The translations under genes and the position numbers were made by a program. Positions 1 to 37,556 of a stretch of DNA of 64,000 nt are shown piece by piece. The DNA comes from Acidobacteriota bacterium. GTDB taxonomy: Bacteria; Acidobacteriota; Holophagae; Holophagales; Holophagaceae. The stretch is from NCBI GenBank assembly GCA_016195985.1, contig JACPYP010000020.1, positions 186,001 to 250,000 on the forward strand, read 5' to 3'. The stretch's first letter is position 1. Every line of letters begins with the position of its first letter. The notes under the pieces were generated by a model. It was not told where the DNA came from. It saw nothing but the letters and a program-made list of their open reading frames with translations, and did not search any database.

Positions 1-1
1 G

Positions 2-582: not shown

Positions 583-1713
583 TCAGGAATGAAATGGCGC
601 AGCTGACAAAATCTCTGCGATCCGCGAAGAAGAAGATCCATCGCCATAGGGAAACCGCGGTTGAGCCATCCGCCGATAAGCTACGGGGTCAGACCATAGG
701 CGATCCGTTTCTCGACGGATAAGATCGGGGTCGGTTCCGACCAAAATTACTCCCCCCGCTTCGACAGCCTCAGGCCTTTCTGTCACGTCCCGGAATACCA
801 GAACCGGCTTGCCGAGGGCTGGCGCTTCTTCCTGGAGACCTCCGCTATCGGTGAGCACGAGGTAGGCTTGCTTTAGGACGCTGACCAAGGTGGGGTAATC
901 CAAGGGCTCCATGAGCTGTACATTGGGGAGGCCCCCAAGAATCTCGGAGGCTGGACCCTTCACATGCGGATTGGGATGTATTGGGTACAAAAGCCGTGCT
1001 TCAGGATGACGATGGGCGAAGTCGCGAATGGCATGGAGCGCCTGGCGGAGAGGCTCTCCAAAAATCTCTCTCCGATGAAGGGTTACCAACACCAGGCGCT
1101 CTCCCGGCTGGAGAGGGGGAATGGGAAGAGTTGGTAAATCCCTTCTTGCCGCGGTGGATAATAGGGCATCGATCACAGTGTTCCCGACAACGTGGATGCT
1201 GGACTCTGGGTAGCCCTCCCTGAGTAGAGCCTTCTGGGACATTTCCGTGGGCGCGAAATGCCAGCGGCTCAGTACAGCGGAAAGCCGACGCATACCCTCT
1301 TCGGGAAAGGGAGCCAAGAGGTTCCCGCTGCGTAATCCAGCCTCCACGTGGCCAAAGGGAATGCCCGCATAAAAGGCCGCCAAAGCGCTACAGAAAACCG
1401 TCGTTGTATCACCCTGTGCAAGCACGGCATGGGGTGCCGCCTCACGAAAAACCTGATCCAACGCCGGAACCAAGGTCCCGGTCAGCGTAGCCAGGGTTTG
1501 GTCTGGCTTCATCGCATCCAGGTCCCATTGAGGCTCCAGGCCAAACACCGCCAGCATCTGATCCAGGAGGCCCCGATGCTGAGCAGTTGCGAGAATGGGT
1601 GCCTCCACCCCCTGCTTACGGAGGGCGTGGACCACGGGAGCCATCTTGATGACCTCCGGGCGTGTGCCAACGACACAAATGACCCGGCGTTTGCTGAGTG
1701 AAAGAGGGTTCAT
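583..1713 (-). CDS. wecB: UDP-N-acetylglucosamine 2-epimerase (non-hydrolysing)
   Basis: A 376-residue protein of normal length for the WecB/MnaA family, which interconverts UDP-GlcNAc and UDP-ManNAc in the cytoplasm. Family marks seen: VVGTRPEVIKMAPVV near the N-terminus, HVEAGLRSG, a VTLHRRE segment, a late DSGGLQEEAPALGKPVLV and RDVTERPEAVEAG, the UDP-binding end. The start has a GGGAGA ribosome site 5 bases upstream. It is the last gene of the minus-strand polysaccharide operon. With the UDP-ManNAc dehydrogenase at 12532-13857 it would supply UDP-ManNAcA, a common acidic sugar of capsules and O-antigens. Confidence 0.95.
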   Translation of the reverse strand: MNPLSLSKRRVICVVGTRPEVIKMAPVVHALRKQGVEAPILATAQHRGLLDQMLAVFGLEPQWDLDAMKPDQTLATLTGTLVPALDQVFREAAPHAVLAQGDTTTVFCSALAAFYAGIPFGHVEAGLRSGNLLAPFPEEGMRRLSAVLSRWHFAPTEMSQKALLREGYPESSIHVVGNTVIDALLSTAARRDLPTLPIPPLQPGERLVLVTLHRREIFGEPLRQALHAIRDFAHRHPEARLLYPIHPNPHVKGPASEILGGLPNVQLMEPLDYPTLVSVLKQAYLVLTDSGGLQEEAPALGKPVLVFRDVTERPEAVEAGGVILVGTDPDLIRRETDRLWSDPVAYRRMAQPRFPYGDGSSSSRIAEILSAAPFHS

Positions 1714-1774
1714 ATTATCTCCCAGGATTAAATCCTATCGCTTGGTCGCCAATAAAGTCATCGACGTTGTAAGC

Positions 1775-3016: not shown

Positions 3017-4659
3017 TCGATCCTGCTGGAAATATGGGCTGGTAACGTGACAGTCGTCGAGAGTTCCAGCGTCTGGTTTGGTATGGCTCGCCCGAATTCA
3101 GGACAATAAAGAGATGGCACCACTCGAGGAGTCCAACCTTCCGGTAACCAAATACGTGCTACTTCGCAGTCTTTGGCACTCAGAATGGCCAAGGGGCCTG
3201 ATACTTCCCATCGCAGATCCGGGTAGAGGTGAAAGAAGAGTTCGGCCCGGTGCTTGCCGCTTCCCTCAAGCTGGTCTGTTACCACAAGGCTCCCCGGACT
3301 CCAATTCCACTGCCGGAAATGATGAACGCCGAGGGATTCGTAGCCGGAATGTCCGGCCCTTACGAAGCCAGACTCCGGTTGCAGATCCACATGTACATCT
3401 CGGGGCTCGGCCCTATTTGCGACTCTGAAACTGCCCCAGATTTCAGACTGATCCAACCCATCTATCCTTAAGGTGTTGTGGGCCGAAGTTTCGCGATTCA
3501 TTCGCCTCATGGCCGGGTCTTGGTACGCGTAAACACCGGTATCAACCAGGACCCTGCGACCCGCCAGCGACAACTCAAAACTGAGGGTGTCGCAATGGCC
3601 ATGGCCCGGCTGATAAACCGGCCCCATGCCCCCCACATCCAGGATCAGGTAGTCTCCTCGATGAGAATCTCCGACCACGACATAACCCGAGGCTTCTAGG
3701 TGGCAGGAAGGCCTTTCCTGGCGAACGGATAGGCCAAGCCTCTCCGCATAAGTGAAGAGCGCCCTCGGGGTGGGTGCAATCCCAAAAGCCGCGTCATTGA
3801 ACAAGGAAATCTCGCCATCGGGATGACACATAGCCTGCAGCCATTCCAGCATTTTCGGAACTCGTTGCAGGATTGCACGATGTACATTAGGCGCCCGAGT
3901 TTGAAGGGTGCCGAGATTCAATAGATCGAGACACCCTTCCAGGATCAGGCTGTGGTACATAGGGCTCAGCTCATAGTGGGCCCCGTCTGCCAAGATCTGC
4001 TCTTCGAGTTCTTCAAGAAGAATGTCCTGTCCCTGCTTCAACCATCGCTCTGGCCCGGGGCCGTCGAACACAAGCCCTGCCCAAAGAAGAGCCTTTGCGT
4101 TCTCGAAAAGATGATTGGCCTGAATATGAAACTCGAAATTCCTTGCCAGATAGCCGGACTGAACGTAGAGGCTTTGAAGAATCACTGATGACGCGTTTCC
4201 CTCGCCGTGTCGGCTGAGCCACTTAAACCAATGGACCAACCGCATAGAAAGCGGGTAAGGATCCCACCCTAGGCTTCTAGGATTGCGGTTGTTCGTGATC
4301 CAGTCTTCCATCAGGTCCCGTCCCTGACGGAGGGAAAGACTCGCAAGGTATTCAAAATAATGAAGGTTATAGCGCCACAGCATGGACTTCGAGGTGATGT
4401 GCCAATCGACCTTTGAACGAAATTCGACGGGCTCATTCAGGAAGGTAAAAGTCCGTCCATCCGAGGACACATGGGACGGCAGGAAGTCCGTCCGAATGTC
4501 CTGAGCGTCGGGCCGGAGGACGGCCTGCCGCGGAGCATGAACACGGGAATACCGCTTCACCTTGGCGAACAGGCGGCCATAGACCTGAACGGGCTTCAGC
4601 CGCCGCAGTGTTCTCCAGTACAGCGGCAGTTTCTTGGCATGTGTGAGGAGCTTTGGCAA
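3001..4659 (-). CDS. Heparinase II/III family polysaccharide lyase-like protein
   Basis: A 552-residue protein. The N-terminal half is an alpha-helical toroid region (for example WRYNLHYFEYLASL, WDPYPLSMRLVHW, FEFHIQANHLFENAKALLWAG, ADGAHYELSPMYHSLILE). The C-terminal beta region contains GPVYQPGHGHCDTLSFEL, RVLVDTGVYAYQDPAMR and NRETSAHNTLRIDG, the conserved Heparinase_II_III blocks with candidate catalytic His and Tyr residues. Members linked to polysaccharide clusters may trim or modify uronate-containing polymer; no signal peptide is evident. The start is probably TTG at 4659, with AGGA about ten bases upstream and six bases after the stop of the preceding gene. Confidence 0.85.
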   Translation of the reverse strand: MPKLLTHAKKLPLYWRTLRRLKPVQVYGRLFAKVKRYSRVHAPRQAVLRPDAQDIRTDFLPSHVSSDGRTFTFLNEPVEFRSKVDWHITSKSMLWRYNLHYFEYLASLSLRQGRDLMEDWITNNRNPRSLGWDPYPLSMRLVHWFKWLSRHGEGNASSVILQSLYVQSGYLARNFEFHIQANHLFENAKALLWAGLVFDGPGPERWLKQGQDILLEELEEQILADGAHYELSPMYHSLILEGCLDLLNLGTLQTRAPNVHRAILQRVPKMLEWLQAMCHPDGEISLFNDAAFGIAPTPRALFTYAERLGLSVRQERPSCHLEASGYVVVGDSHRGDYLILDVGGMGPVYQPGHGHCDTLSFELSLAGRRVLVDTGVYAYQDPAMRRMNRETSAHNTLRIDGLDQSEIWGSFRVANRAEPRDVHVDLQPESGFVRAGHSGYESLGVHHFRQWNWSPGSLVVTDQLEGSGKHRAELFFHLYPDLRWEVSGPLAILSAKDCEVARIWLPEGWTPRVVPSLYCPEFGRAIPNQTLELSTTVTLPAHISSRIEWTVD

Positions 4660-4665
4660 TTGGGA

Positions 4666-6825
4666 CTATCCTGCACTCAAAGTCAGCGGTATACCCGAAT
4701 TAATCGACTCCTCTATAAGGAAAGTGGCTTGAGTCGTCGCAACAATTTCTTCAAACGCTATGGGTGACGGTTTTCCATCATGCACGGCCTCGAGGAAGGC
4801 TGAAAGTTCTTCGAAAAATCCCTTGTCCTGCCCCCTTGACTTGATCTTGGTAACCTTGCCACCAACACTCATTTCGAGTTCACGGAAATCGTTCAACACG
4901 CCCAGCCTTCCTCCGGCGAGTACCTCGATGCGCTCCTTGGGGTAGCCGGGATCACCACTGGACGAGTAAAGGATCGTACCGAGTGAGCCGTCCCGAAACT
5001 TGATGGTGACCGCCACATTGTCTCTAGCAATGGGATCGGCATGGTCCAACTTCAAAGTTTGCGCGAAAACACGCTCAGGCAGGCTTCCAGCCAGGAAGGT
5101 AAGGAGGTCCACGAAATGGCAGACCTCGCCAATAATCCTGCCACCTCCCTCGCCCGGGTGCTGGATCCAACTGTCCTGGGGAATAAGGCCAGCATTAATC
5201 CGATAAGTCATAACCAGGGGATGTTTCCCCCCTCCCATGAAGCGTTTTAGCTCGCGAGCATGGGGAGAGAACCGCCGGTTGAACCCCACCATCAGCACTG
5301 AACGAGACCGGCTGTTGGCCTCGATGATCCGAGCGAGCTCATCCTCATTCAGGCATAGTGGCTTCTCCACAAATACATGCTTACCTGCGGCCAAAGCCTT
5401 GATCACCTGATCCGCGTGAGCGTTGTGACGGGTCGCGATAAAGACCGTATTAACTTCCGGGTCTGCCAGAATCTCATCAGCAGTTGAAGCGGCGACCTCG
5501 ACACCCATTTTGGCCGCGACCGCCTGGGCCTTGGCTGGAGTTGCTGTAGCCACGGCGCGCAATCGCGTCTTCAGCTTCCGCAGGTGGGGAAACAGAACGC
5601 CCGTGGCGAAATTCCCCGCCCCGATGAGGCCAACCGCGGGAAGGTTGCCAGTCGCCTCCGATGCCACCTTTCCAACAGTCACCCCCCGGGGACAACCCGC
5701 CTCCAGCGGGGGATACTCAAGGACGATACCCATATAGGGTTCGAGGATTTTACCCTCAATGAGGTCATAGGCCCGAAGCGCATCCGCAAACGGGATGCGA
5801 TGCGTTATCAAGGGTTTTATGTTTAAAGATTTGGCCTTAATGAGGTCCAGGAAGGCGGCCATGTTCCGCTGTTCGGTCCAACGGACGTAACCGTACGGAT
5901 AATCATGGCCGCGCTCTTCATACTCAGGGTCGTAACGACCTGGGCCATAAGATGTCGAAAGCCGGAATTCGAGCTCCTTCTCGTAGTAATCCTTGCGAGG
6001 CAGATCCATGCCCACTGCGCCCACAGCCACCACTCGTCCCTTTTTGCGTGTGATGGCTCCAGCCAGTTCCACTGGGGCATTGCTCTTCGTGGCGGCCGTG
6101 ATGATAACTGAATCCACGCCACGTCCACCGCTACTGGTTTCGCAAGCAGAGGTAAAATCACATTCAGCCCCCGCGAAATCAGCACCAAATTGCCGTGCCA
6201 ATGCATTCTTCTCTGGATCCAAATCTGTGGCGATCACCCGGCATCCAGAGGCTTTCAATAACTGGACGGTCAACTGCCCCAGCAAGCCCAGTCCTACAAC
6301 TGCCACGATCTCGCCGAGCCTCGCCTCGGACTGACGCACCCCCTGCATGGCGATAGCGCCAAGTGTGACAAATGAAGCCTCTTCCATTTCCACGCCATCA
6401 GGTATTGGAACCGTCAGGTTCTTTGGGACCCAGATCACATCAGAATGGCTGGCATAACCCATACCCGCGCATGCCACCCGGTCCCCCGGAAGGAGTCCCT
6501 TCACTCCGGGGCCTACCTCCAAAATGGTTCCGGCAGCGCTGTATCCGAGCGGAAGCGGTGTCTCGAGTTTGCTCTGCACTTTGGAGAAAGTGGAGAGTAA
6601 ACCCTCCTTTTTCACCTTTGTCATGACCTGCCGAACCAAGTCAGGCCTCGCCATAGCCTTCCCGAGAAGGCTTTTCTTTGCAAATTGAACGATCATGCGC
6701 TCAGTGCCAGCACTAACCAAGGTGCGGTCGGTTTGAACCAGCACGCCGCCTTCCCGACACTCTGGCCATGGAACTTCGACACTCTGAAGATCACCCGTTT
6801 TGTAGTCCTGAATGATTTGCCGCAT
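4666..6825 (-). CDS. Bi-domain oxidoreductase (zinc-type alcohol dehydrogenase fused to Gfo/Idh/MocA dehydrogenase)
   Basis: A 719-residue fusion. Residues about 1-350 are a medium-chain dehydrogenase/reductase (PLGYSAAGTILEVGPGVKG, GDRVACAGMGYASHSD, Rossmann motif VVGLGLLGQLTVQLL). Residues about 375-719 are a Gfo/Idh/MocA enzyme starting VGLIGAGNFATGVLFPHL, with VFIATRHNAHADQVIKALAAGKHVFVEKPL (the EKP catalytic lysine; shown in two overlapping parts) and GEVCHFVDLLTFL. Such fusions occur in polysaccharide clusters next to heparinase-like genes and act on sugar or sugar-acid intermediates; substrate unknown. Its ATG shares one base with the aminotransferase stop (TAATG), so it is coupled to it. 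Confidence 0.88.
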   Translation of the reverse strand: MRQIIQDYKTGDLQSVEVPWPECREGGVLVQTDRTLVSAGTERMIVQFAKKSLLGKAMARPDLVRQVMTKVKKEGLLSTFSKVQSKLETPLPLGYSAAGTILEVGPGVKGLLPGDRVACAGMGYASHSDVIWVPKNLTVPIPDGVEMEEASFVTLGAIAMQGVRQSEARLGEIVAVVGLGLLGQLTVQLLKASGCRVIATDLDPEKNALARQFGADFAGAECDFTSACETSSGGRGVDSVIITAATKSNAPVELAGAITRKKGRVVAVGAVGMDLPRKDYYEKELEFRLSTSYGPGRYDPEYEERGHDYPYGYVRWTEQRNMAAFLDLIKAKSLNIKPLITHRIPFADALRAYDLIEGKILEPYMGIVLEYPPLEAGCPRGVTVGKVASEATGNLPAVGLIGAGNFATGVLFPHLRKLKTRLRAVATATPAKAQAVAAKMGVEVAASTADEILADPEVNTVFIATRHNAHADQVIKALAAGKHVFVEKPLCLNEDELARIIEANSRSRSVLMVGFNRRFSPHARELKRFMGGGKHPLVMTYRINAGLIPQDSWIQHPGEGGGRIIGEVCHFVDLLTFLAGSLPERVFAQTLKLDHADPIARDNVAVTIKFRDGSLGTILYSSSGDPGYPKERIEVLAGGRLGVLNDFRELEMSVGGKVTKIKSRGQDKGFFEELSAFLEAVHDGKPSPIAFEEIVATTQATFLIEESINSGIPLTLSAG

Positions 6826-7958
6826 TAGGCTCTCCAGAGGCTCGTCGGAAGTTGCTGGAAGGCCCGGACCACCTGTTCCATCTGGGAACGTGTGCCAATG
6901 CTGATCCGGATCATGTTCGCTAGACCAGCCATATAGCTTCGGTCACGCGCGTAAATGCGCGATTCGGCGAGCCCCTGAATCACCATCTTGGGCTCTGGAA
7001 CACGCATGAGCACGAAATTGGCACGACTGTCGAAGAGGACTCCGCCCATGGAGCGCATCATCTCAAGAAACCATGATCGAGCTGCGACAACCTCATCCAC
7101 GTAATCCTGAACGAGTTCGTAGCGATCCAGGAGTGCCTGGGCACCCACTTGCGCAAGCATGCTGATGTTCTTCGGATTCCGAACCTTATTCACGTGCCCC
7201 AAATTGGCAGATTGGGACACCAGGTACCCCAGGCGCAGGCCGGCAAGAGCGAAGGCTTTTGAAAAGGATCTGGCCACGAAGAGATTCGGAAACTCGCCGA
7301 TAAGGGGAAGAGAGCTGCTGCCCGCGAACTCAGCATAGGCCTCATCCACAACCATTACCGTCTCAGGAAACCTGCTCAAGAGAAACCGGATTTCCTCGGG
7401 TGGGATGAAATAGCCAATGGGATTGTTCGGGTTCACCAAGTACATGATTTTCGGACTGGAGGTCAAATGTTCCACTCGCCAAACGAATTCGTCGACGTTA
7501 AAACCGAGGGTATCGGCCAGGTTGACATGATGGACCTTGGCCCCGCAGCTTTCTACGTAAATACGAAAATTATCGTAAGTCGGTGCAAGCAGAATAGCCT
7601 CATCCCCCGGCATGACAAATGTCCGCACCAGTGCATCGAGCGCCACGTCGGAACCGGGAAACATGAGGATGTTTTCCGTCGGCACATTCAGGAGTTTCGT
7701 CAGGGGTTCCACAACCCTCCGGCATGTCACATCAGGGTACCAATTCACCACTCCCGCATGCGAAAGGAACCGTGAAACAGCATCAACCACTACAGGGTGA
7801 GTGAGCGTCCCTTCGTTCCAATCTAGCTTCAGGGCCCCAGATGCGTCCGGCATGCGCCAAACTTCCTGGCTAGACAGAATGTATTCCGCCAAATTGGCGA
7901 CAAAGGGCGTTGGCTCAGGATACCGCCTGGGTAGCGCTGGGGAGGAAGAGTTGGTCAC
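6825..7958 (-). CDS. HisC-like PLP-dependent aminotransferase (class I/II)
   Basis: A 377-residue fold-type I PLP enzyme related to histidinol-phosphate aminotransferase. Seen: LDWNEGTLTHP at the start of the domain, FPGSDVALDALVRTF, the NPNNPIGY segment, VVDEAYAEFAG and the Schiff-base lysine in ARSFSKAFALAGLRLGY, ending with an arginine in ANMIRISIGT for the substrate carboxylate or phosphate. I chose GTG at 7958 rather than the long upstream extension: it has a GAGG site and forms a GTGA overlap with the stop of the PHP gene. In this cluster it probably aminates a polymer precursor rather than making histidine; that is inference. Confidence 0.85.
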   Translation of the reverse strand: MTNSSSPALPRRYPEPTPFVANLAEYILSSQEVWRMPDASGALKLDWNEGTLTHPVVVDAVSRFLSHAGVVNWYPDVTCRRVVEPLTKLLNVPTENILMFPGSDVALDALVRTFVMPGDEAILLAPTYDNFRIYVESCGAKVHHVNLADTLGFNVDEFVWRVEHLTSSPKIMYLVNPNNPIGYFIPPEEIRFLLSRFPETVMVVDEAYAEFAGSSSLPLIGEFPNLFVARSFSKAFALAGLRLGYLVSQSANLGHVNKVRNPKNISMLAQVGAQALLDRYELVQDYVDEVVAARSWFLEMMRSMGGVLFDSRANFVLMRVPEPKMVIQGLAESRIYARDRSYMAGLANMIRISIGTRSQMEQVVRAFQQLPTSLWRA

Positions 7959-8752
7959 GGGATGGCCTCGTATTGGACGGGAACTGAATAGTAACGAGCG
8001 AGTTTTCGCCCGTATTTCCAGATCCGTATGCTGCGTTTCAGGGAATATGGAACCTTGGCGATGAGGGCCTGGTACCAATCGGTGTGTCGAAACCGCTGGA
8101 AGAACGTCTGTCGCTTTACTTTGGAAATATACCCCCGGGCCTTCAGCAGGCTGGTTGGCGCTTTGCTCATCGCCAAGCGTAGCGCGGCGGGGTTCACCGG
8201 CGAATCGAGGTCCATCTCTGTCACAAGCATCCCGACCTCCCATTGCCTGTGCGCATCGCTCGCAGCAATGCAGCGAAGCCCGTGAACCTGTGCCAAATCA
8301 CGGATCTCTTCCTGGAAGGGACTTAGATCGAACCCCCCGTTCCAGGCCTCGATGAAATCCGCCTCTTGGAGCGCCGCGGTAATTTCTTCAGCGCTGCTCA
8401 ACGGATTGCCAAGCAGACCACTCCCCGGCTTGAAGGGATGGGGGATGGAGATGAGCCCGCCCTGGTCTCTGATTGAGGCAAGAATTCCCTCGATGGGGCC
8501 CTGCTCTATCCGACGGTTGATGAAGAACCCAATGACGTGAACCCCCTTATCGGTGGTCACCTCCATGGACGGAATCAGGAAGACGCCCTGCCCACGCGCC
8601 TTCTCCAGGTCCTTTTCGGTCAGGCAAAATACATCATGTTCGGTGACTGCTACCGCATCGATGCCCTTCTCCCGGCATTCAGCAATCAGACCATCCAAGC
8701 TGGTAAACCCATCATGGGAAGATTCGGTGTGGCAATGCAGCTCAAACCGCAT
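7955..8752 (-). CDS. PHP-domain metal-dependent hydrolase
   Basis: A 265-residue PHP (polymerase and histidinol phosphatase) protein. Metal-binding motifs in order: FELHCHTESSHDG at residues 3-15, AVTEHD near residue 37, an ISIPHPF motif, and AASDAHRQWEVG. These match the HxH, EHD, HPF and SDAH signatures that hold two or three metal ions for phosphoester hydrolysis. The chosen ATG at 8752 lies 11 bases inside the end of the CapK-like gene, with a G-rich site just upstream; the longer frame adds a tail unlike the family. The substrate may be a phosphorylated sugar or a phosphoprotein of the polysaccharide pathway. Confidence 0.85.
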   Translation of the reverse strand: MRFELHCHTESSHDGFTSLDGLIAECREKGIDAVAVTEHDVFCLTEKDLEKARGQGVFLIPSMEVTTDKGVHVIGFFINRRIEQGPIEGILASIRDQGGLISIPHPFKPGSGLLGNPLSSAEEITAALQEADFIEAWNGGFDLSPFQEEIRDLAQVHGLRCIAASDAHRQWEVGMLVTEMDLDSPVNPAALRLAMSKAPTSLLKARGYISKVKRQTFFQRFRHTDWYQALIAKVPYSLKRSIRIWKYGRKLARYYSVPVQYEAIP

Positions 8753-10067
8753 CAGCCCCCCCCAGCATGGAAACAACCACACGCTTTTTTCCCTCACCGG
8801 TCTGCACAAACGCCTCATTCAAATGGATCTGAATATTGATGGCTTCACCCAACCGATCTTGAAGTTTGGTGCGCAACTCACGAAGCAAGGCCTCTCCAAA
8901 ATCCTGGGACTTAATATAGACTTCCAGACACCCAACCTCACGCTGTACCAGTTGGAAAGCAATGATGTTGGGCAGTTCATAAAACAGCGTGTAGAAGTTG
9001 ACACTAGGAATGATCCGGCCATCCGGGGTCCGAATGAAGTCGTCCGACCTTCCCTTAATGGCCTTGACAAGGGGCAAGGTTCTTCCGCATCCGCATAAAG
9101 CGCCATCTTCCGCCAATACCGCCACATCCCCGGTCTCGTACCTGATGAGGGGCATGGCAAGATTATGCAAGCAAGTTGCAACGATACGACGCTCGTTTTC
9201 CGGGAGTGAAGGGTCGGCGAGGAGCTCGCAATACCCGTATTCCAGGTTGATGTGGAGGCCTTGATGAGCCTCGCACTCATTCATCGTGATGGTTTCCTCC
9301 GACTGGCCGTACCAGTCAAACACGCTGGCTCCAAACACCCGCTCGATCGTCTCCCGGTAGACCGGCAACAGAGACTCTGAGGCTGTAAGAATACCTTTGA
9401 CTCTTGGAGCCGTGATCCCCTGCGCCTCTGCCATCTTTGCAAGGATATAGAGCGATGATGGATAGCCCCTCAGGTACTTCGGCTGCCATTCCCGAAGCTT
9501 TTCCAGATAAGCAGCCGCATTTTCAGGTGTCAAATGATAGGCGGACATGTACAGGAAATTCCGGATAGGATCCAGCTTCCAAAGCGGCTCACCAGCTTCA
9601 GGCACATAGGATCTCACGATAGCCATGCGATCCCGGAATCGATACCCCATCCAACTCCAATGACGCCATACGATTGCTTGCTCCATAACCCAATGATTCT
9701 TGGAAACCTGGATCACAAACGGCTCCCCAGTAGACCCGCTCGAGCGCAATTCCATCGCTTTGGCAGCCTCCATTGCATTCAATAGTTCAGAGCCGAGCCC
9801 CCGGGCTCTTGCCTTGGTCATGGTGGGGATTCGTTGCAGGTCGGCCATGGACCGAAAGTCCCGATCGGGATCGAAACCCAAATCGTGAAATAGTTTTTTA
9901 TAATATGGGACATTGCTCGCCGCCGAACGAAGCAACTCTCGGCACTTCACAACCTGGAATTGCTCAATTTGTTCCTGGCTCCAGCGCTGGGTTTGGGACA
10001 GGAACCTCTGTGACAAGAAGATCCCTTTTGCACTGAGCCATAAATCTTCCAGCAGGCTTACCTTCAA
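8742..10067 (-). CDS. CapK / phenylacetate-CoA ligase family adenylate-forming enzyme
   Basis: A 441-residue protein of the ANL superfamily, PaaK/CapK branch. Seen: RSSGSTGEPFVIQVS (the ATP-phosphate loop), LRGYPSSLYILAKMAEAQG, DWYGQSEETITMNECEAHQGLHI and LIRYETGDVAVL, then CGRTLPLVKAIKGRSDD. A PaaK enzyme would activate a carboxylate to an acyl-adenylate and CoA ester; members in capsule clusters may activate an acyl or amino-acid substituent for the polymer. The start is TTG at 10067, supported by a strong GGAGG six bases upstream. It is 17 bases after the flippase gene and overlaps the PHP gene. Confidence 0.87.
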   Translation of the reverse strand: MKVSLLEDLWLSAKGIFLSQRFLSQTQRWSQEQIEQFQVVKCRELLRSAASNVPYYKKLFHDLGFDPDRDFRSMADLQRIPTMTKARARGLGSELLNAMEAAKAMELRSSGSTGEPFVIQVSKNHWVMEQAIVWRHWSWMGYRFRDRMAIVRSYVPEAGEPLWKLDPIRNFLYMSAYHLTPENAAAYLEKLREWQPKYLRGYPSSLYILAKMAEAQGITAPRVKGILTASESLLPVYRETIERVFGASVFDWYGQSEETITMNECEAHQGLHINLEYGYCELLADPSLPENERRIVATCLHNLAMPLIRYETGDVAVLAEDGALCGCGRTLPLVKAIKGRSDDFIRTPDGRIIPSVNFYTLFYELPNIIAFQLVQREVGCLEVYIKSQDFGEALLRELRTKLQDRLGEAINIQIHLNEAFVQTGEGKKRVVVSMLGGADAV

Positions 10068-10084
10068 GGAATTCCTCCAAGTTG

Positions 10085-11335
10085 TTATGAGACGGCTCGT
10101 GCTGATCGGTAATTCGAGCCTGAGTTCCGTCCGACCATATATACCTTAATACCCATTAAAATGGCATAGCTACATAGAGATACCACCATCGCAAGCACTA
10201 ATCCATGGTCAGAGGCGAGCTTGAAAGGCGCCAGCAAACTGACTCCAAGAAATAAGCCGACCGAAGCCAACGAGACATAAAAAATGGTCCTAACCGATAC
10301 TCGCCCAATCAGTAGATTCGGCGTCAGCCACACGAGATACAAGAGCGGTGTAAGTAAAGGAATCACCCTCAAATACCCCATTTCTAAAACTTGCCCTTTA
10401 AATATGTATTTAAGGATCATTGGCAGCAAAGCATATAGAACGACTGCTCCGACCAAAATCCAAATGCTCGCTAGCCAAAGAAAGATGGTCTTCGAGGCTG
10501 ACTGGCTATTCCACAGGGTCGCCTGGAAAATGCTGGGATGAAGCGGCACGGAATAAATAACGGCAATGCCAGCAGAAAGAACAAGCTTATAAAGCGCCAC
10601 TTGTTGACTCCGCGCGAACAACGAGAAGACCAAAATGGCCAGCGTGTTGAAGGTCACAAACAAAAGGCGTGGTCCGCAAAGAAGCGCCACTTTTTGCGCC
10701 ATTCGTCTAACCCGGGTTCCTCCGATGCGCATTTTGGCCGTTAGAATCTCTTCGATTGTGGCGCGCGCATCACGCCACAATCCTGCCGCGCAGATCGCGT
10801 ATGTGGTGAATACGGACCAAAGTATCCCGCGGGCCCCCGTTCCCAGCATTGAGCAAAACAGCAACGGCAGCAGCGACAGAGACAAAGAAAAGAGTAGGCT
10901 GTTGCGGACGATGGCACTGCCATGTGCATTGCCCAGATTAATCGAAAGCAGGAGGGTATATAACCCCATCATCACCGTAATAGCCGTCATCAGAATGAAA
11001 TGTTCCAAAGCAATGCCAGCGGCCAGGGCATATACTGCCATAGCCACCCCTATAAAGGAGAAATAGACACCAATAATATTAAATAAGGCCCGGAGATGGG
11101 CGCCTCGTGTGTTCGGAAATCTAGATAACTGTACAACATAAGCAAACAAAGCCGATTCCACTAATCCCTGAGCAAAATATGGCAAACTCAGCATGGCGGA
11201 GACTCGACCGAACACCTCAAAACCCAAGAGCTTTGGGATAATCAAATTATTAACAAGCAACCCAATAAAAGATAGCAATTGGGCCAATGCCCCATAAATA
11301 TTTTTCTTAAGTAAGCTTCCCACTTGGGTCCTCAT
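10085..11335 (-). CDS. Wzx-like polysaccharide flippase (MATE/MOP superfamily)
   Basis: A 416-residue integral membrane protein with about twelve hydrophobic segments. The N-terminus, IYGALAQLLSFIGLLVNNLIIPKLLGFEVFGRVS (shown only to describe: positions about 20-53), has the typical lipid-flippase start of a first helix, a positive loop and the PxLG...YG-like pattern. It would move the undecaprenyl-linked repeat unit across the inner membrane. I prefer ATG at 11335 over the TTG at 11353, which has no ribosome site; both overlap the end of the preceding polymerase-like gene. The sequence is among the most AT-rich of the window. Confidence 0.8.
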   Translation of the reverse strand: MRTQVGSLLKKNIYGALAQLLSFIGLLVNNLIIPKLLGFEVFGRVSAMLSLPYFAQGLVESALFAYVVQLSRFPNTRGAHLRALFNIIGVYFSFIGVAMAVYALAAGIALEHFILMTAITVMMGLYTLLLSINLGNAHGSAIVRNSLLFSLSLSLLPLLFCSMLGTGARGILWSVFTTYAICAAGLWRDARATIEEILTAKMRIGGTRVRRMAQKVALLCGPRLLFVTFNTLAILVFSLFARSQQVALYKLVLSAGIAVIYSVPLHPSIFQATLWNSQSASKTIFLWLASIWILVGAVVLYALLPMILKYIFKGQVLEMGYLRVIPLLTPLLYLVWLTPNLLIGRVSVRTIFYVSLASVGLFLGVSLLAPFKLASDHGLVLAMVVSLCSYAILMGIKVYMVGRNSGSNYRSARAVS

Positions 11336-12518
11336 TCTCGATTTGAATCCCAATGGCTACAACAATTGCGATTAGGAATAATGACGGGATGTGACGCAGA
11401 GAGGGTTCGGTCATCCCAAATAAATGCAAGATGATAAGACTGGTGACCCCCCAATTTCTGACCAGTCCTCCAATTCTCCACAATGCCTGAATGCTGAAGA
11501 CCATTACCGCCAGATATGACAGAAGTCCGGTCACCCCCATGTCCATTAGCAGATAAACGAAAAAATTATGAAGATATCCAACCGTCGGATTCATTAATGC
11601 ATAGGAAGCAAGAAATTGGCTACTGGTAGAGCCATAGATCAGTTCCGTCGGGACAGGAAACCCCAGGCCCATTCCCCAGATAGGAGAGTCCATAAATCGA
11701 CTCAGTCCAAAGAGGTATTCATTGATTCGGCCTGATTCATCATCATTGATACGTTCCAAGGCCAGCGCGAACGGATTCATCCCGATTACCTGGATCATGA
11801 TCATCAAGCAACCCACCAGGACCAGGAGCATGATCACCAGCCGCTTGGAAACGCGCTTCTCCAAATATGCGAACAGCATGATTCCTAAAAGCAATGTCAG
11901 CAGATGGGCGCGCGAGCCAGAGAAGAGACTAATAGCGCTCAGGAAAACCACCGCGGCGATAGTAAAGCCACGATGGCGTTTTTGATAATTGAGCAGGGCA
12001 ATACCCGTAAGAGAACCGATCACAAAAATCGGCGATAGAGCGTCGCTGCTGATCTGGGATAGCCGGGTAAGCGCGCCCAAATCGATTCCACTGGCGATAA
12101 CCACAATCAGTTCCACAATCACCCGAAGGCCTGAAACCACGGCGGCCACAAGAACCATGGTTATGAGCTCTTGATAACTCGCTCGCTTGCGGCCGAGAAC
12201 ACTAATTACTAGCACGAAAAACAATAAAATCAAATTGGGTCCTAATCCCTTTAAATAGTCCCCGAGACCCGTCCCATTCAAATACGCTACAAAGAAGGAA
12301 AGACCGCAAAAAACCATGTATAGCCCGATCCATCGAAAGATCCGGCTTCTGGTTAGGAGGATCTGGATCCGGGGGTCCAGGAGCAACCATGTGGATGCCC
12401 CTAGACCAATTGCAAGCAAGGCAATCCCTCCTCCTACCAGCGGTGTGAGTTCAGAGGGGGCCGCGGGGATAAGGCCGACAAAGATCACCAGAAGGAAGAG
12501 GTAGACCTTCAGCAGCAT
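11307..12518 (-). CDS. O-antigen ligase / Wzy polymerase-like membrane protein
   Basis: A 403-residue multi-spanning membrane protein. The first transmembrane segment begins right at the chosen ATG at 12518 (LLKVYLFLLVIFVGLIP), which is why the longer soluble extension was dropped; no clear SD is seen. A periplasmic loop between later helices (about 275-345) contains RINDDESGRINEYLFGLSRF and MGLGFPVPTELIYG, resembling the Wzy_C/O-antigen-ligase loop. It probably polymerises repeat units or ligates the finished chain. It lies 13 bases after wecC and overlaps the flippase gene. Polymerase and ligase cannot be told apart from sequence alone. Confidence 0.75.
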   Translation of the reverse strand: MLLKVYLFLLVIFVGLIPAAPSELTPLVGGGIALLAIGLGASTWLLLDPRIQILLTRSRIFRWIGLYMVFCGLSFFVAYLNGTGLGDYLKGLGPNLILLFFVLVISVLGRKRASYQELITMVLVAAVVSGLRVIVELIVVIASGIDLGALTRLSQISSDALSPIFVIGSLTGIALLNYQKRHRGFTIAAVVFLSAISLFSGSRAHLLTLLLGIMLFAYLEKRVSKRLVIMLLVLVGCLMIMIQVIGMNPFALALERINDDESGRINEYLFGLSRFMDSPIWGMGLGFPVPTELIYGSTSSQFLASYALMNPTVGYLHNFFVYLLMDMGVTGLLSYLAVMVFSIQALWRIGGLVRNWGVTSLIILHLFGMTEPSLRHIPSLFLIAIVVAIGIQIENEDPSGKLT

Positions 12519-12531
12519 TGTAAAAGGCGGC

Positions 12532-13857
12532 TCAAGAGCCAGACAGGCTGAGGGCTTGAGCCATGGAATCCCGCTGCCCAGGGGAAACCGGCGTTGGAAG
12601 TAATAGCTTCCCCAGGAGTTGCACGACGAAACCAGCTGCATTCCAAACGCCAGCATCAACCAATTTACGAGTGTCGATCAGAAGCCGGCGGCGCATCAGT
12701 TTCCCAAGAGCCCCCGGATCCAGAAGCTTAAATTCATTGTGATCCACCATCAAAAGCACACAATCCGAATCGCGGAAGGCGTCCTCAAGACCAGATAGCG
12801 AATGTTCAAACCGCTCAACATGCGGATCATAGATACCTAGTTCAATGCCTTGAGCCTTTAGATCCGCGATGACCTCTAGGGACGGGCTTTCACGTGTATC
12901 ATCGACATTTCCCTTGTAAGAGACACCCAACAAGGTCACTTTGGGATTGGTTATCCCAACCAAGCTTTCTCGAACAAGCCCAGCCACGCGATGCGGCATC
13001 CCATCATTAATGTTGCGCGCCATGGCGATGAGCCGAGCGTCCTCCGGCAGCCTCTCCACCAGGAACCAGGGATCCACTGATATGCAATGGCCACCAACTC
13101 CGGGCCCGGGGTTGTGCAGGTGGACCCGGGGATGGTGGTTCGCGAATTGAATGACATCCCAGGCATTGATCCCGAGTTTCCCGCACAACACGGCCAACTC
13201 ATTGGCAAGGGCGATATTCACGTCCCGGTACGTGTTTTCCATGAGCTTGACCATCTCAGCGGTCGTCGCATCGGTGAGAATGATCTCTCCCGCCACGAAA
13301 CTTGCATAGAGATCGCGTGCCCGCTCTGCAGATTCCGTCGTCACGCCTCCAATGATCCGATCGTTTTCGATCAGTTCGTTAAGGATTCTTCCGGGCAACA
13401 CCCGCTCGGGGCTATGCGCAAGAAAGAGATCGACTCCAACAGTCAGCCCGCTTTCAGCAAGGATTGGGGCGAGGACATCGACCGTTGTGCGCGGAGGGGA
13501 AGTCGATTCCAAGATCACCAAGTTTCCTGCACGTAAGTAAGGAACGATGGCGCGAGCAGAAGCCTCCACGTAAGAGAGATCTGCTTTCTTGTCCTCTGTA
13601 ATGGGCGTGGGAACAGCCAAGATGAACGCATTTGCTTCAACAGGAGTAACACTCGCGCGCAAGTTTCCTGAATGAATAGCCGCCTGAACAACAGTTTTAA
13701 GGCCCGGTTCCTCGATGTGGATCTCACCGCGATTTACGATGTCCACAACGCGTTGACTGATGTCGACGCCCTGCACCCGGAAACCATTGCTCGCAAAAAC
13801 GCTAGCCGTCGGCAAGCCAATGTAGCCCAACCCAACAACGCAAATATCAATATCCAT
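12532..13857 (-). CDS. wecC: UDP-N-acetyl-D-mannosamine dehydrogenase
   Basis: A 441-residue UDP-sugar dehydrogenase that oxidises UDP-ManNAc to UDP-ManNAcA with two NAD. The Rossmann motif VVGLGYIGLPTASVF is at residues 5-20, ILESTSPP near residue 115, the helix NTYRDVNIALANELAVL near 205, and GPGVGGHCISVDPWFL near 250 holds the catalytic cysteine. The C-terminal nucleotide-binding part has VTLLGVSYKGNVDDTRESPS. ATG at 13857 was chosen because GAAGGA lies six bases upstream; a TTG five codons earlier has none. The neighbouring wecB supplies its substrate, which favours this role over UDP-glucose dehydrogenase. Confidence 0.9.
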   Translation of the reverse strand: MDIDICVVGLGYIGLPTASVFASNGFRVQGVDISQRVVDIVNRGEIHIEEPGLKTVVQAAIHSGNLRASVTPVEANAFILAVPTPITEDKKADLSYVEASARAIVPYLRAGNLVILESTSPPRTTVDVLAPILAESGLTVGVDLFLAHSPERVLPGRILNELIENDRIIGGVTTESAERARDLYASFVAGEIILTDATTAEMVKLMENTYRDVNIALANELAVLCGKLGINAWDVIQFANHHPRVHLHNPGPGVGGHCISVDPWFLVERLPEDARLIAMARNINDGMPHRVAGLVRESLVGITNPKVTLLGVSYKGNVDDTRESPSLEVIADLKAQGIELGIYDPHVERFEHSLSGLEDAFRDSDCVLLMVDHNEFKLLDPGALGKLMRRRLLIDTRKLVDAGVWNAAGFVVQLLGKLLLPTPVSPGQRDSMAQALSLSGS

Positions 13858-14003
13858 ACATATCCTTCTCAATCCTCAAGACGTGCGCCGTTCAAAAAAC
13901 TGAAATCTCTACGCCTTTCGTTATCTCAAAATGGAATCAAACCGCCGCCCAACAACTACCATCTTCCTCCTCATCATGAACAATGAAAAATACGTTTCAA
14001 CCA

Positions 14004-14990
14004 TCAATGCTCTCCGTTCGAGGGTGCGGTAGCTTCTCCGCCTGCAGCGATGGCTTTATATTTCAACCACTCCAGATTGAACCTCAGCCAGGCCCCCGTC
14101 CCCGCAAGCAAGGTGACTAACAGAACCAGCATGGATCGCGACGGGCGACTCTTTTCGATGGGAAGATGCCCGGGATCAAGCACATTCAAAATGGGAACAT
14201 CGTTTTTTTCTTCAAGAAGGGCCTGCTCACGATTCATGGCCAAGGTCGTTACAAGCTGTTGCCGGAGGCGGAGCTCATTTTCAAGACGGCTGCCCATGAG
14301 TCTTACTGCTGGATCTGCACTTCCGAGGTAGTTTCGGTTGCCAACCAAAAATCGTGAAAAAGCATGTTCTGCTTCATCCATCTCCTTGCGGGCATCCGCA
14401 AGGCGGGCCTCAGCAAATATAGCCTTCGCTCCTCCCCGAGTACGCCCCTTCTCTTGCAGGAACCCCTCAAGCAATCGACCAGACTGCTGAACCAGGAGCT
14501 GCGAAAGCTCAGGAGACTTCGTTTCGGCACCTATGGTAATGACCTTTGATTTCACATCTCGACTTGAAGATAGGATCTCATTGAGTTTTTTTACCGCCCG
14601 ATCCACATTCTTCTCGCCGATATAGTCATACAGAGTGCCTCGGACCAAATGTTCAGGGCCAAATCTCCAAGAGCGTACGTGATATTTAAACTCGGTCCGA
14701 AGAAGCTGCTCTCTAATCCATCTGCTGTTGACGACATCGGTGAAATTAGCATCATTGCTGTCTCCACCGGGAACACTGACACCAAGCGCCGCGGCGGCGT
14801 TCGCAAGTCCTCCAAGATTCCCGCTCAAGCCTTTCGATTCCACAGGAAGAAGACGAAGCTCTGACCTGTAGTAATTCGGAAGAAACACAATGATCCCTGC
14901 TGCCAGGATCCCTGCAGCGAGAGTCCACCGCAGCGGCTTCAGATGAACGGGCCGCGGCTGGGCAGATTGAGGTTTCGTCGACTCAGTCAT
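14004..14990 (-). CDS. Wzz/Chain-length determinant family protein
   Basis: About 328 residues with the Wzz layout: a first transmembrane helix near residues 22-40 (WTLAAGILAAGIIVFLP), a large periplasmic region with helical segments around RGGAKAIFAEARLADARKEM, and a second helix near the C-terminus (SMLVLLVTLLAGTGAWLRF). A Pro-rich stretch ILNVLDPGHLPIEKSRPSRS precedes the last helix, as in Wzz/BcsG-type co-polymerases. No tyrosine-kinase domain is present. It would set polymer length in a Wzy-dependent pathway. It is the first gene of the polysaccharide operon, 60 bases beyond the rpoC terminator. The exact start (14990 or 15020) is uncertain because no clear SD is seen. Confidence 0.8.
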   Translation of the reverse strand: MTESTKPQSAQPRPVHLKPLRWTLAAGILAAGIIVFLPNYYRSELRLLPVESKGLSGNLGGLANAAAALGVSVPGGDSNDANFTDVVNSRWIREQLLRTEFKYHVRSWRFGPEHLVRGTLYDYIGEKNVDRAVKKLNEILSSSRDVKSKVITIGAETKSPELSQLLVQQSGRLLEGFLQEKGRTRGGAKAIFAEARLADARKEMDEAEHAFSRFLVGNRNYLGSADPAVRLMGSRLENELRLRQQLVTTLAMNREQALLEEKNDVPILNVLDPGHLPIEKSRPSRSMLVLLVTLLAGTGAWLRFNLEWLKYKAIAAGGEATAPSNGEH

Positions 14991-15049
14991 ATGAATTAAG
15001 TGTAGTCGAATCTTGGCCAAACCGGGAACTTACGGGTTGTGCAGAACAA

Positions 15050-15082
15050 CACAAAAAAGGGCGGGAATCGTCCCGCCCTTTC
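15050..15082 (-). terminator. Intrinsic terminator of the rpoBC operon
   Basis: On the minus strand an 8-bp perfect GC-rich stem (GGGCGGGA / TCCCGCCC, extended by A-T pairs) with a four-base loop is followed by a run of six T. It lies 20 bases after the rpoC stop and separates the RNA-polymerase operon from the polysaccharide cluster. Confidence 0.93.
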
Positions 15083-15101
15083 AGACACCCGCTTATTTGA
15101 A

Positions 15102-19340
<4,239 letters not shown>

Positions 19341-34482: not shown

Positions 34483-35757
34483 CTAATGGAACTGCTGGGC
34501 CTCGGTGGAGCCCGCCAGGGCCAGGGTGGAAGCCAGGCCCCCGCTGATGGCCTGGGCCACTTCGTCGAAGTAGCCGGTGCCCACTTCGCGCTGGTGCTTG
34601 GTGGCCGTGTAGCCCCTCTCTTCCGAGGCGAACTCCGCCTCCTGCAACCGGGCGTAGGCGGTCATGTGCTCGGTGCGGTAGGCGTTGGCCAGCTCGAACA
34701 TGCCGTGGTTGAGGCTGTGGAAGCCCGCCAGGGTGATGAACTGGAACTTGTAGCCCATGGCGTTCAGCTCCTTCTGGAAGGTGGCGATCTCCTTGTCCGA
34801 GAGTTTTTTCTTCCAGTTGAACGAGGGCGAGCAGTTGTAGGCCAGCAGCTTGCCGGGAAACGCCGCATGCACGCCCTCTGCGAACTCCTTGGCCTCCTTC
34901 AGGTCCGGCGTGGAGGTCTCGCACCAGATCAGGTCGGCATAAGGCGCGTAGGCCTTGGCCCGGGCGATGGCCATCTGGACGCCGCCCGTGATGCAGTGGA
35001 AGCCCTCCGGCGTGCGCTCTCCCGTGAGGAAGGGCTTGTCCCGCTCGTCGATGTCCGACGTGATGAGGCGGGCGGAATCCGCGTCCGTGCGGGCGATGAT
35101 GAGGGTGGGCACGTCCATGACGTCCGCCGCCAGGCGGGCCGCCACGAGGGTGCGGATAAAGTGGCCCGTGGGGATGAGCACCTTCCCGCCCAGATGGCCG
35201 CACTTCTTCTCGCTGGAGAGCTGATCCTCGAAGTGGACGCCGGCGGCGCCCGCCTCGATCATGCCCTTCATGAGCTCGTAGGCGTTGAGGGGCCCGCCGA
35301 AGCCGGCCTCGGCATCGGCGACGATGGGAAGGAACCAGTCGCGGCTGATGCCGCCCTCGCCGTGCTCCACCTGGTCCGCCCGCTGCAGGGCGCCGTTCAG
35401 CCGTTTCACCAGAGCGGGCACCGAATTGGCCGGATAGAGGCTCTGGTCCGGGTAGGTCTGGCCCGAGAGGTTGGCATCCGCCGCCACCTGCCAGCCCGAG
35501 CAGTAGATGGCCTTGAGCCCGGCCTTGGCCATCTGCACCGCCTGGCCGCCGCTCAGGGCCCCCAGGGCCCGGGTGGGCTCCTCGTTCTGGAGCAGCTTCC
35601 AAAGCTTGCGGGCTCCCATTTGGGCCAGGGTGTGCTCGATGCGGATGCTGCCACGAAGCTTCTTCACCGTGGCGGCAGTGTAGGGCCGGGTGATGCCCTC
35701 CCAGCGCTGGGCGGCGAAATCGTCTTCGATGGGCGGAATGGGAAAGCGGGGGGTCAT
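34483..35757 (-). CDS. aceA: Isocitrate lyase
   Basis: A 424-residue enzyme that splits isocitrate into succinate and glyoxylate, the first step of the glyoxylate bypass for growth on acetate or fatty acids. Seen: [23 protein letters not shown] (start of the barrel, split here as [16 protein letters not shown]), [20 protein letters not shown], the catalytic KKCGHLGGK, and [17 protein letters not shown]. No malate synthase lies in the window. The gene is read away from a RamB/ScfR-type regulator across 150 bases that hold repeated GTCAA boxes, so acetate-dependent control is likely. Confidence 0.97.
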
Positions 35758-35790
35758 GGAGCACCTCGAAAAGGTTGTGGGTGGCGTGAT

Positions 35791-35823
35791 GTCAAAGATT
35801 GACTTATTCTTTGGCGAGTCAAT
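35791..35823. promoter_or_regulatory. Inverted GTCAA boxes in the aceA/regulator intergenic region
   Basis: Two overlapping dyads: GTCAA-AGA-TTGAC (35791-35803) and ATTGACT, 12 bases, AGTCAAT (35798-35823, perfect 7-bp arms). A further AGTCAATT occurs at 35861. Their position between divergent promoters suggests an operator; the binding protein is inferred to be the adjacent regulator. Confidence 0.5.
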
Positions 35824-35881
35824 GAACGGCTGATTTAATAGGGGTTAAGTTGAAAATTTCAGTCAATTCGCACACCTCATT

Positions 35882-35898
35882 TTGTAAATACTTGTAAA
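35882..35898 (+). promoter_or_regulatory. Direct repeat TTGTAAA x2 before the regulator start
   Basis: TTGTAAA occurs at 35882-35888 and 35892-35898, one helical turn apart, 10 bases before the regulator ATG. It resembles the TTTGCAAA-type site known for corynebacterial RamB, so autoregulation is possible. Confidence 0.4.
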
Positions 35899-35907
35899 CG
35901 AGGCCTC

Positions 35908-37350
35908 ATGCCCTCTCCCGCGCCCACCAAGCCCGCCGCCCGTCTCGGGGCCAAAATCCGCCTCCTCCGCCGTCAGGAAGGCCTGAGCCAGGTCCAGCTG
36001 GCCGAGGCCTTGGCCATCAGTCCCAGCTACTTAAACCTCATCGAGGGCAACAAGCGCCCCCTCACGGCGCCCCTGCTCATCCGCCTCGCCCAACAGTTCA
36101 AACTGGACCTGAAGGCCCTGGCCCCCGAGGAGGACCAGCGCCTGTCGGATGACCTCATGGAGGTCTTCGGCGACCCCCTCTTCGAACCCATGGACCTGCA
36201 GGCACAGGATGTGCGAGAGCTGGTCCAGAACAATCCCACCCTGGGCCGGGCCGTTTTCGAGCTCTACCGGGCCTACCAGCATGCCCAGGACAGCCTGGGC
36301 ACCCTGTCCGCCAAGCTCAGCGACGGCCAGGGCTACGACCCCGAGGCCACCCGCCTGCCCTCCGAGGAGGTCGGCGACTTCATCCAGCAGACCATGAACC
36401 ACTTCCCGGAGCTGGAAGACGCTGCTGAGGCCCTTTGGGAGCAGTCGCCGCTGGACGCGGAAAACCCGTACCCCGGCCTGGTGTCCATCATGGAGGCTCG
36501 TGGCATCGCCATCCGCATTCACCGGGTGTCCGAGGGCCCCGGCCTCCTGAGGCGCTTCGACCCAGACCGGCGCATCCTCAGCCTTTCCGAACTGCTGCCC
36601 CAGCGCAGCCGCACCTTCCAGCTGGCCCACCAGCTCGCCCTGCTGGACCACAGCGACCTGTTGGACCAACTCACGGTCCACCCCCTGCTCCGGACGCCCG
36701 CCTCCCGGGCCCTGGCCCGGGTGGCCCTGGGCAACTATTTCGCCAGCGCCGTCCTGATGCCCTACGAGCGGTTCCTGAAGGCAGCGAAGCTGGAACGCTA
36801 TGACATCGAGATCCTGGCCCGGCGCTTCCAGGCCAGCTTCGAGCAGGTCTGCCATCGCCTCACGACCTTGCGAAGACCCGGCGCCGAGGGCGTGCCCTTC
36901 CACTTTCTGCGCCTGGACATCGCGGGGAACATCTCAAAGAGTTTTTCCGCCTCAGGCATCCGCTTCGCCCGCTTTTCCGGTGCCTGCCCCCGCTGGAACG
37001 CCCACGCGGCCTTCCTCACGCCGGGCCTCATCCGCACCCAGATCAGCGAGATGCCCGACGGCCGCAAGTATTTCTGCATCGCCCGCACCCTGCAGAAGGA
37101 TACGGGCGGCTACCGGGGCCAGCACGCCATGCAGGCCCTGGGCCTGGGCTGCGACATCGGCCACGCCAAGGAGCTCATCTACGCCGACGGCCTGCGCCTC
37201 GACCAGCCCCCCGTTCCCATCGGCGTCACCTGCCGCCTTTGCGAGCGCACCGACTGCGAGCAGCGGGCCTTCCCGCCCCTGCAGCAGGCCCTCAGGGTCG
37301 AAGAGAACTTGCGCCGCACGAGTTTCTACGCGCGGCTCGAAGGCAGTTGA
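35908..37350 (+). CDS. RamB/ScfR-type XRE transcriptional regulator (DUF955/DUF2083)
   Basis: A 480-residue regulator. An XRE helix-turn-helix lies at residues 12-68 (LGAKIRLLRRQEGLSQVQLA, SPSYLNLIEGNKRPLT). The middle IrrE-like part has RTFQLAHQLALLDH, where the usual HExxH zinc site is degenerate. The C-terminal end carries CRLCERTDCEQRAFPPL, the DUF2083 cysteine motif of short-chain-fatty-acyl regulators. Corynebacterial RamB, with this layout, represses isocitrate lyase and malate synthase; ScfR types respond to propionyl-CoA or related esters. Here it is divergent from aceA, a context match. GAGG lies four bases before the ATG. Confidence 0.88.
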   Translation: MPSPAPTKPAARLGAKIRLLRRQEGLSQVQLAEALAISPSYLNLIEGNKRPLTAPLLIRLAQQFKLDLKALAPEEDQRLSDDLMEVFGDPLFEPMDLQAQDVRELVQNNPTLGRAVFELYRAYQHAQDSLGTLSAKLSDGQGYDPEATRLPSEEVGDFIQQTMNHFPELEDAAEALWEQSPLDAENPYPGLVSIMEARGIAIRIHRVSEGPGLLRRFDPDRRILSLSELLPQRSRTFQLAHQLALLDHSDLLDQLTVHPLLRTPASRALARVALGNYFASAVLMPYERFLKAAKLERYDIEILARRFQASFEQVCHRLTTLRRPGAEGVPFHFLRLDIAGNISKSFSASGIRFARFSGACPRWNAHAAFLTPGLIRTQISEMPDGRKYFCIARTLQKDTGGYRGQHAMQALGLGCDIGHAKELIYADGLRLDQPPVPIGVTCRLCERTDCEQRAFPPLQQALRVEENLRRTSFYARLEGS

Positions 37351-37385
37351 TCCGTTCGCCCAGCAGATCCCGGCTTAGAAGAAGC

Positions 37386-37524
37386 GGAACGCAGAGGACA
37401 CAGAGGGGCACGGAGGATGCAGAGAAAAACAGGGGTCAGGCCCCTGCCGGTGACTCTGAAGCGAGTGACGCCTTTCCGCCGGTCCAAGGAACACGTACTC
37501 CTTCCTCTGTGCCCTCTGTGTTCC
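37386..37524. repeat. Intergenic inverted repeat after the regulator gene
   Basis: Left arm (37386-37406) and right arm (37504-37524) are 21 bases long and match at 19 positions as inverted copies (GGAACGCAGAGGACACAGAG against GGAACACAGAGGGCACAGAG). A short inner hairpin AGGGG / CCCCT lies between. The CAGAGG-rich arms look like a dispersed palindromic element. No transposase is present. Confidence 0.7.
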
Positions 37525-37556
37525 AGCCTTTCTTCAAGAGATCCCAAAGCCAGACA

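Follow-up and report, generated by a model that had tools for sequence, protein, structure and literature searches.

An ScfR-family regulator divergent from isocitrate lyase in Geothrix, with conserved candidate operators between the two genes

The aceA-regulator locus

The window analysed here, a stretch of 64,000 nucleotides from an Acidobacteriota genome that its relatives place in Geothrix, carries an isocitrate lyase gene (aceA) and a regulator gene of the ScfR family in divergent orientation (Table 1). The 150-base interval 35758-35907 is the entire space between aceA and the regulator's ATG at 35908. The regulator scores 211.1 bits against PF09856 (cut-off 24), and its Pfam domains are an HTH (residues 14-71), a Peptidase_M78/IrrE domain (196-319) in which HExxH is absent, and a ScfRs domain (320-474), which we take to be the former DUF2083. 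This is the HTH, IrrE-like and ScfRs layout of the ScfR / IsaR family, and no other PF09856 match occurs in the window genome. A first-pass annotation had described aceA as divergent from an ScfR-type regulator with an HTH, a degenerate IrrE domain and DUF2083; the open reading frames, NF011645 and the Pfam domains bear out both the gene arrangement and the layout. Elsewhere in the window, GC content is 0.48-0.58 over positions 1-16000 versus 0.61-0.71 in the rest, a possible island, and inverted near-repeats that resemble a repeat element, 'gcagaggacacagagggg' and 'cctctgtgccctctgtgttcc', were noticed by eye at 37380-37545, downstream of the regulator.

Table 1. Genes flanking the interval and the putative regulatory elements within it (window coordinates)
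Feature	Position	Strand	Evidence
aceA, isocitrate lyase, 424 aa	34483..35757	-	NCBIfam NF011645 equivalog, 742.1 bits (cut-off 562); open reading frame
Box A, TGTCAA	35790..35795	+	93 bp ahead of the tandem; majority identity 1.00 in 24 Geothrix rows
Box B, ATTGAC (GTCAAT on the minus strand; inverted partner of box A)	35798..35803	-	TTGAC majority identity 1.00; GTCAANNNTTGAC occurs once in the window genome
Box C, GTCAAT	35818..35823	+	Majority identity 0.96
Possible aceA -10, TATTAA	35835..35840	-	TTGACT lies 20 bp ahead on the same strand; inferred from sequence
Box E, (A)GTCAAT	35862..35867	+	Majority identity 1.00; AGTCA ends 17 nt before the tandem
Candidate tandem operator, first half-box TGTAAA	35883..35888	+	TTGTAAA conservation 0.98
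Candidate tandem operator, second half-box TGTAAA	35893..35898	+	Period 10; 9 bp before the regulator ATG; conservation 0.96
ScfR-family regulator, 480 aa (HTH, degenerate IrrE, ScfRs domain)	35908..37350	+	Pfam PF09856, 1e-62

The regulator had also been likened to RamB, and in the corynebacterial sense this does not hold (the definitions of class 1 and class 2 RamB used here are as cited in PMC10370305). The regulator reaches 418.7 bits against a cut-off of 700 for the NCBI RamB equivalog NF038139, less than the prp-linked Rhodococcus and pcc-linked Azospirillum proteins, and the 150-base gap contains no TTTGCAAA-type operator of class 1 RamB. On this score and the missing TTTGCAAA, direct orthology to corynebacterial RamB was rejected. 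Eight other ScfR proteins also fall under 700 bits: Rhodococcus prp-linked (584.6), Streptomyces (569.7), Nocardia (557.5), Azospirillum pcc-linked (541.5), P. alcaliphilus aceBA-linked (440.7), Minicystis (440.2), Nitrospirillum, with its N-terminus cut (434.6), and a second ScfR from one further genome, G034 (421.9). The window regulator is among the furthest from NF038139, together with the aceA-linked proteins, the second ScfR of G034 being equally far. The latter (locus L036, 8393-9757) is 40% identical to the window regulator, lies about 3 kb from an aceA-like stretch (30% identical), and is probably a propionate regulator.

In an unrooted tree of 39 rows, built without named class 1 RamB, seven rows on the MccR/PccR side split off at 97/97, leaving the Paracoccus/Thioclava RamB proteins and a 28-row clan with the window regulator together, on separate branches. 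The window locus has a glyoxylate-cycle gene divergent from the regulator, as class 2 RamB loci do. The regulator is an ScfR that probably works in the manner of class 2 RamB, and we do not file it as class 1.

Half-boxes in the gap and their conservation in Geothrix

GTCAA occurs in the gap at 35791, 35818 and 35862, TTGAC at 35799, and TTGTAAA at 35882 and 35892; the first-pass annotation had placed these motifs correctly to within one base, its 35861 being the A that precedes GTCAA. To set the chance level, the gap was dinucleotide-shuffled 5000 times. The four GTCAA motifs on both strands (shuffle mean 0.49) were reached by 3 of the 5000, and the two TTGTAAA motifs likewise by 3; for the pattern [TA]GT[AC]AA, six were observed versus a mean of 0.52, a count that no shuffle equalled, and the single tandem pair of TGT[AC]AA was reached by 2 of the 5000. 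The tandem in the window is TGTAAATACTTGTAAA, with a period of 10. It is the only site in the 4.26 Mb window genome that matches TGTAAAN{2,5}TGTAAA, and the pattern TGTMAAN{3,4}TGTMAA has two sites, the second in an AT-rich stretch in which no pathway gene was recognised. With strict matches to these two patterns, at those spacings, no wider regulon was found in the window genome. Malate synthase is encoded elsewhere in that genome, and neither strand of the 13 kb surrounding it carries a TGTMAA box.

The GTCAA and TTGTAAA boxes seem to be forms of a single half-box, TGT(A/C)AA, because the same slot holds TGTCAAT in some Geothrix and TGTAAAT in others. One or both tandem halves read TGTCAA instead of TGTAAA at L021, L028, L029 and L030 and in G011, and TGTCAA and TGTAAA are mixed in the gaps of other Holophagaceae. 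The two box types that the earlier account listed separately are present, and probably not distinct.

Conservation was scored per column, as majority identity, across the gaps of 24 Geothrix. Its mean is 0.98 over the 36 box positions, versus 0.81 for the other 114 positions of the gap (Mann-Whitney p 3e-9; 24 rows); for comparison, 149 four-fold sites of the regulator stand at 0.79 and the 150 bases after the regulator at 0.52 (23 rows). Retention of the boxes in relatives had been proposed beforehand as a test, and they are nearly invariant in the 24 Geothrix. There are also conserved stretches outside the boxes, at 35806-35811 (0.92) and 35831-35846 (0.94). Spacing is conserved as well: the distance from box A to the tandem is exactly 93 bp, and the gap from the AGTCA of box E to the tandem is 17 nt, each in 25 of 27 Geothrix rows, with L021 and L029 deviating in both cases. 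Ahead of box A, the aceA leader is of variable length (32 to 54 bases) while the 93 bp stay fixed.

Linkage and operators across relatives

Geothrix are iron-reducing acetate users. Among 36 other genomes of the genus, aceA was found in 34 and the regulator in 33, fragments counted. Two genomes, G009 (99% complete) and G027 (71%), have neither gene, and in G036 aceA is present and the contig ends at its start. In G009 the aceA and malate synthase queries had no match, and the regulator query had none past the HTH.

A scan of genome contigs, in which the best 80 of 510 candidates gave 79 loci and which thus covers the nearest relatives rather than the whole family, found aceA (54 loci) or aceB (22) divergent from the regulator within 500 bp at 76 of the 79, in several phyla. 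At 33 of these 79 loci the regulator is at least 81% identical to that of the window; these are Geothrix or close kin, and many are also among the 36 genomes above. Two of the three exceptions to the linkage are contig ends, and the third, L126, is a genuine absence over the 2.5 kb of upstream sequence available.

In the distant gaps, a strict tandem of TGTMAA on the regulator's strand is present in 23 of 45, versus 0.04 expected from shuffles, and the reversed orientation in none. The operator code is not uniform across loci, since the remaining 22 gaps, including that of L116, the closest non-Geothrix locus, are without the strict tandem, and a TTTGCAAA-type box occurs in 7 of 47 gaps, all alphaproteobacterial. 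Half-box pairs of the present kind were seen in all four Paracoccus/Thioclava aceBA gaps with a loose pattern that has no shuffle control. One aceA gap from Azospirillum has TTTGTAAA boxes 16 bp apart and lacks the strict pair; one pcc-linked gap from Azospirillum and one prp-linked gap from Pseudochrobactrum have TTCGCAAA/TTTGCAAA-type boxes, and in one prp-linked gap from Rhodococcus neither was seen.

Of 23 other loci, 9 have another box at a distance of 81-97 bp from the tandem (0.53 expected); among 13 clade representatives picked by hand the count is 5 (0.31 expected). This bin was chosen after the distances were seen. Enrichment is similar at 14-34 bp (10 of 23 loci versus 0.65 expected; 5 of 13 representatives), in line with the spacing in Paracoccus and that of box E. 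The bins of 60-80, 100-117 and 118-138 bp are at chance level, and that of 35-55 bp is not clearly so (2 of 23 loci; 2 of 13 representatives, reached by 19 of 400 shuffles).

In Geothrix further from the window (G001, G019, G021 and G028), as in other Holophagaceae and at myxobacterial loci, it is aceB-aceA that is divergent from the regulator, and this arrangement is therefore probably ancestral. In the window and its closer kin, aceA lies directly behind the former operon promoter. We read these gene orders as the loss of aceB from the ancestral operon, with the candidate operators and their spacing kept, which would tie the boxes to the glyoxylate promoter. At L035 (G011) the gap is 353 bases long and combines the aceA leader and the operator region with a 32-base match to aceB; on the same reading this would be a transitional form of the loss.

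A probable glyoxylate-shunt switch and its relation to known systems

What the regulator might sense can be judged from M. tuberculosis PrpR (MtPrpR). By residue mapping on PDB 6cz6, Cys360, 442, 445 and 450 match the 4Fe-4S ligands of MtPrpR; CX2CX4C is present in all 61 regulators collected, and the upstream Cys is present in the window regulator. Equivalents of four CoA-contact residues of MtPrpR, the adenine-sandwich Phe240 and His319 together with Arg338 and Lys347, are kept, while Phe155, Arg159, Arg348, Lys217 and Lys410 are replaced by Ser152, Gly156, Ser345, Leu214 and Ala407, respectively. The CoA-ester pocket thus appears only partly conserved, and CoA-ester binding is predicted. 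Ligand choice in MtPrpR is set by residue 155, and in its F155H mutant residues 155, 159 and 348 hold the succinyl group (PMC6765138); residue 155 is Phe in MtPrpR, His in MtRamB and Ser152 here. Because all three residues are changed in the window regulator, succinyl-CoA bound as in the mutant seems an unlikely candidate. Intermediates of the ethylmalonyl-CoA pathway are likewise unlikely ligands, and the pathway was rejected as a signal source, since no crotonyl-CoA carboxylase/reductase in the window genome exceeds the cut-off (best 166, cut-off 378.55). The regulator probably senses acetate-derived molecules, and acetyl-CoA or another fatty acyl-CoA is our guess.

Read along the aceA strand, TTGACT (35866-35861) precedes TATTAA (35840-35835) by 20 bp, and box E, which reads ATTGAC on that strand, could double as a -35 element. 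If these hexamers are the promoter, the centre of the tandem would lie near -62 and box A/B near +31. Start-site positions are inferred because a promoter scan gave no sigma-70 promoter-like site.

We consider it probable that the gap is a local switch for the glyoxylate shunt, in which the ScfR regulator binds the TGT(A/C)AA half-boxes and regulates its own gene as well as aceA. The regulator, with its HTH and an acyl-CoA pocket predicted to be stiffened by a 4Fe-4S cluster, would bind half-boxes in the shared promoter region. The main site for activating aceA, at about -62 of the inferred start, would be the tandem together with box E; the tandem, so close to the regulator's ATG, may also dampen expression of the regulator itself. 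Box A/B, which lies past the inferred aceA start, would offer the same tetramer a second site, and aceA would stay off until the tetramer's shape changed in response to an acyl-CoA that signals acetate or fatty-acid use. Activation from the tandem combined with a second site downstream fits the anatomy of the gap and the RamB of P. denitrificans, which is a tetramer in solution and seems both to activate and to repress (PMC10370305).

A bolder generalisation, which we offer as tentative, is that in several phyla a single ScfR tetramer spans a pair of TGTMAA operators, about 83-95 bp from each other (a fixed 93 bp in Geothrix), on either side of an ace promoter, and that the ligand in Geothrix is an acyl-CoA other than succinyl-, propionyl- or methylmalyl-CoA, the acyl-CoAs tied to the ScfR family in the cited papers.

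There is also the question of whether the regulator activates or represses. It might repress aceA, with acetate relieving the repression, as RamB does in Corynebacterium and M. tuberculosis: RamB represses aceA in C. glutamicum (PMC4448153) and icl1 in M. tuberculosis (PMC6765138), and the stretch from the inferred aceA start to the aceA ATG, a place for a repressor to act, contains boxes A, B and C. We regard this as unlikely, given the NF038139 score below the equivalog cut-off and the absence of a TTTGCAAA-type box; in addition, no strong aceA promoter was found, which suits an activated gene, although as evidence this is weak. In Paracoccus, moreover, where gene order and half-boxes are similar, deleting ramB silences a reporter that carries the aceB upstream region (PMC10370305). 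In P. denitrificans RamB is an activator of aceB-icl; mutation of both boxes abolishes its binding and mutation of either abolishes reporter activity (PMC10370305). Because the window regulator resembles this class 2 RamB, a shown activator, activation of aceA is likelier by analogy than repression.

A further scenario involves two factors, the ScfR protein binding only the TGTAAA tandem, in autoregulation, and the GTCAA boxes serving another regulator. The inverted arrangement of boxes A and B, as against the direct repeat of the tandem, would suit such a division, but the swap of TGTCAA and TGTAAA in the same slot in Geothrix and other Holophagaceae, the mixture of both letters in the Paracoccus boxes of PMC10370305, and the fixed spacing of box A, box E and the tandem make it quite improbable. 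That the boxes are promoter or leader-RNA elements rather than operators is very improbable indeed: TTGAC does resemble a -35 hexamer, but the scans gave no sigma-70 pair and no Rfam match at gathering scores in 35600-36000, and the same half-boxes stand at other positions in distant gaps.

We therefore return to a single regulator acting on TGT(A/C)AA half-boxes as the preferred reading. Among the papers listed in searches of open-access literature, none dealt with ScfR control of aceA in Geothrix or the Acidobacteriota, and the founding ScfR paper may have predicted such members earlier. What we count as new is the fixed 93-bp spacing between box A and the tandem in Geothrix, the second box at 81-97 bp, the changed ligand-selecting residues, and the loss of aceB with the operators kept. 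The first-pass annotation had suggested that RamB-like acetate control would be extended to another phylum. An ScfR gene divergent from isocitrate lyase, with conserved candidate operators, does exist in the Acidobacteriota; control there would be an addition and not the first extension, because control beyond the Actinobacteria was shown earlier in Paracoccus, of the Pseudomonadota (PMC10370305). For a group of regulators tied to the glyoxylate shunt in several phyla, an operator code can now be predicted. We suggest that Geothrix, through its pocket residues, its fixed operator spacing and the loss of aceB with the promoter kept, offers a natural series in which to study changes of ligand and the choice between activation and repression in ScfR proteins.

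Among known and related systems, the loci L077-L081 represent another family of the same class, in which an XRE-IrrE regulator is also divergent from aceB-aceA; this regulator is without the ScfRs domain (three of five checked by Pfam), and the gaps hold GCGAATATTCGC-like palindromes. At L077 such a palindrome abuts TTGACA upstream of aceB, in what looks like a repressor-type arrangement. The class 1 RamB of C. glutamicum shares with the window regulator its domain layout and aceA as target, but its operator, of the AA/GAACTTTGCAAA type (PMC4448153), is not in the window gap. M. tuberculosis PrpR/RamB (PDB 6cz6) matches the window regulator at 6e-87 over residues 75-476, and its TTTGCAAA-type operator (PMC6765138) is again unlike the gap.

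The parallel studied by experiment is the class 2 RamB of P. denitrificans, which, like the window regulator, is of the ScfR family, is divergent from glyoxylate-cycle genes and has TGTMA-like half-boxes. The Paracoccus proteins compared, those of P. alcaliphilus, P. aminophilus and P. versutus, are 42-43% identical to the window regulator, and all three keep Arg159, where the window regulator has Gly156. The RamB oligonucleotide of P. denitrificans contains the half-boxes AGTCA, TGTCA, TGTAA and TGTCA with gaps of 4, 18 and 4 (PMC10370305), so that the inter-box gap is 18 nt, as compared with 17 nt between box E and the tandem in Geothrix. The upstream site consists of paired half-boxes in Paracoccus and of the single half-box E in Geothrix, which differs too in having a further candidate site at 93 bp.
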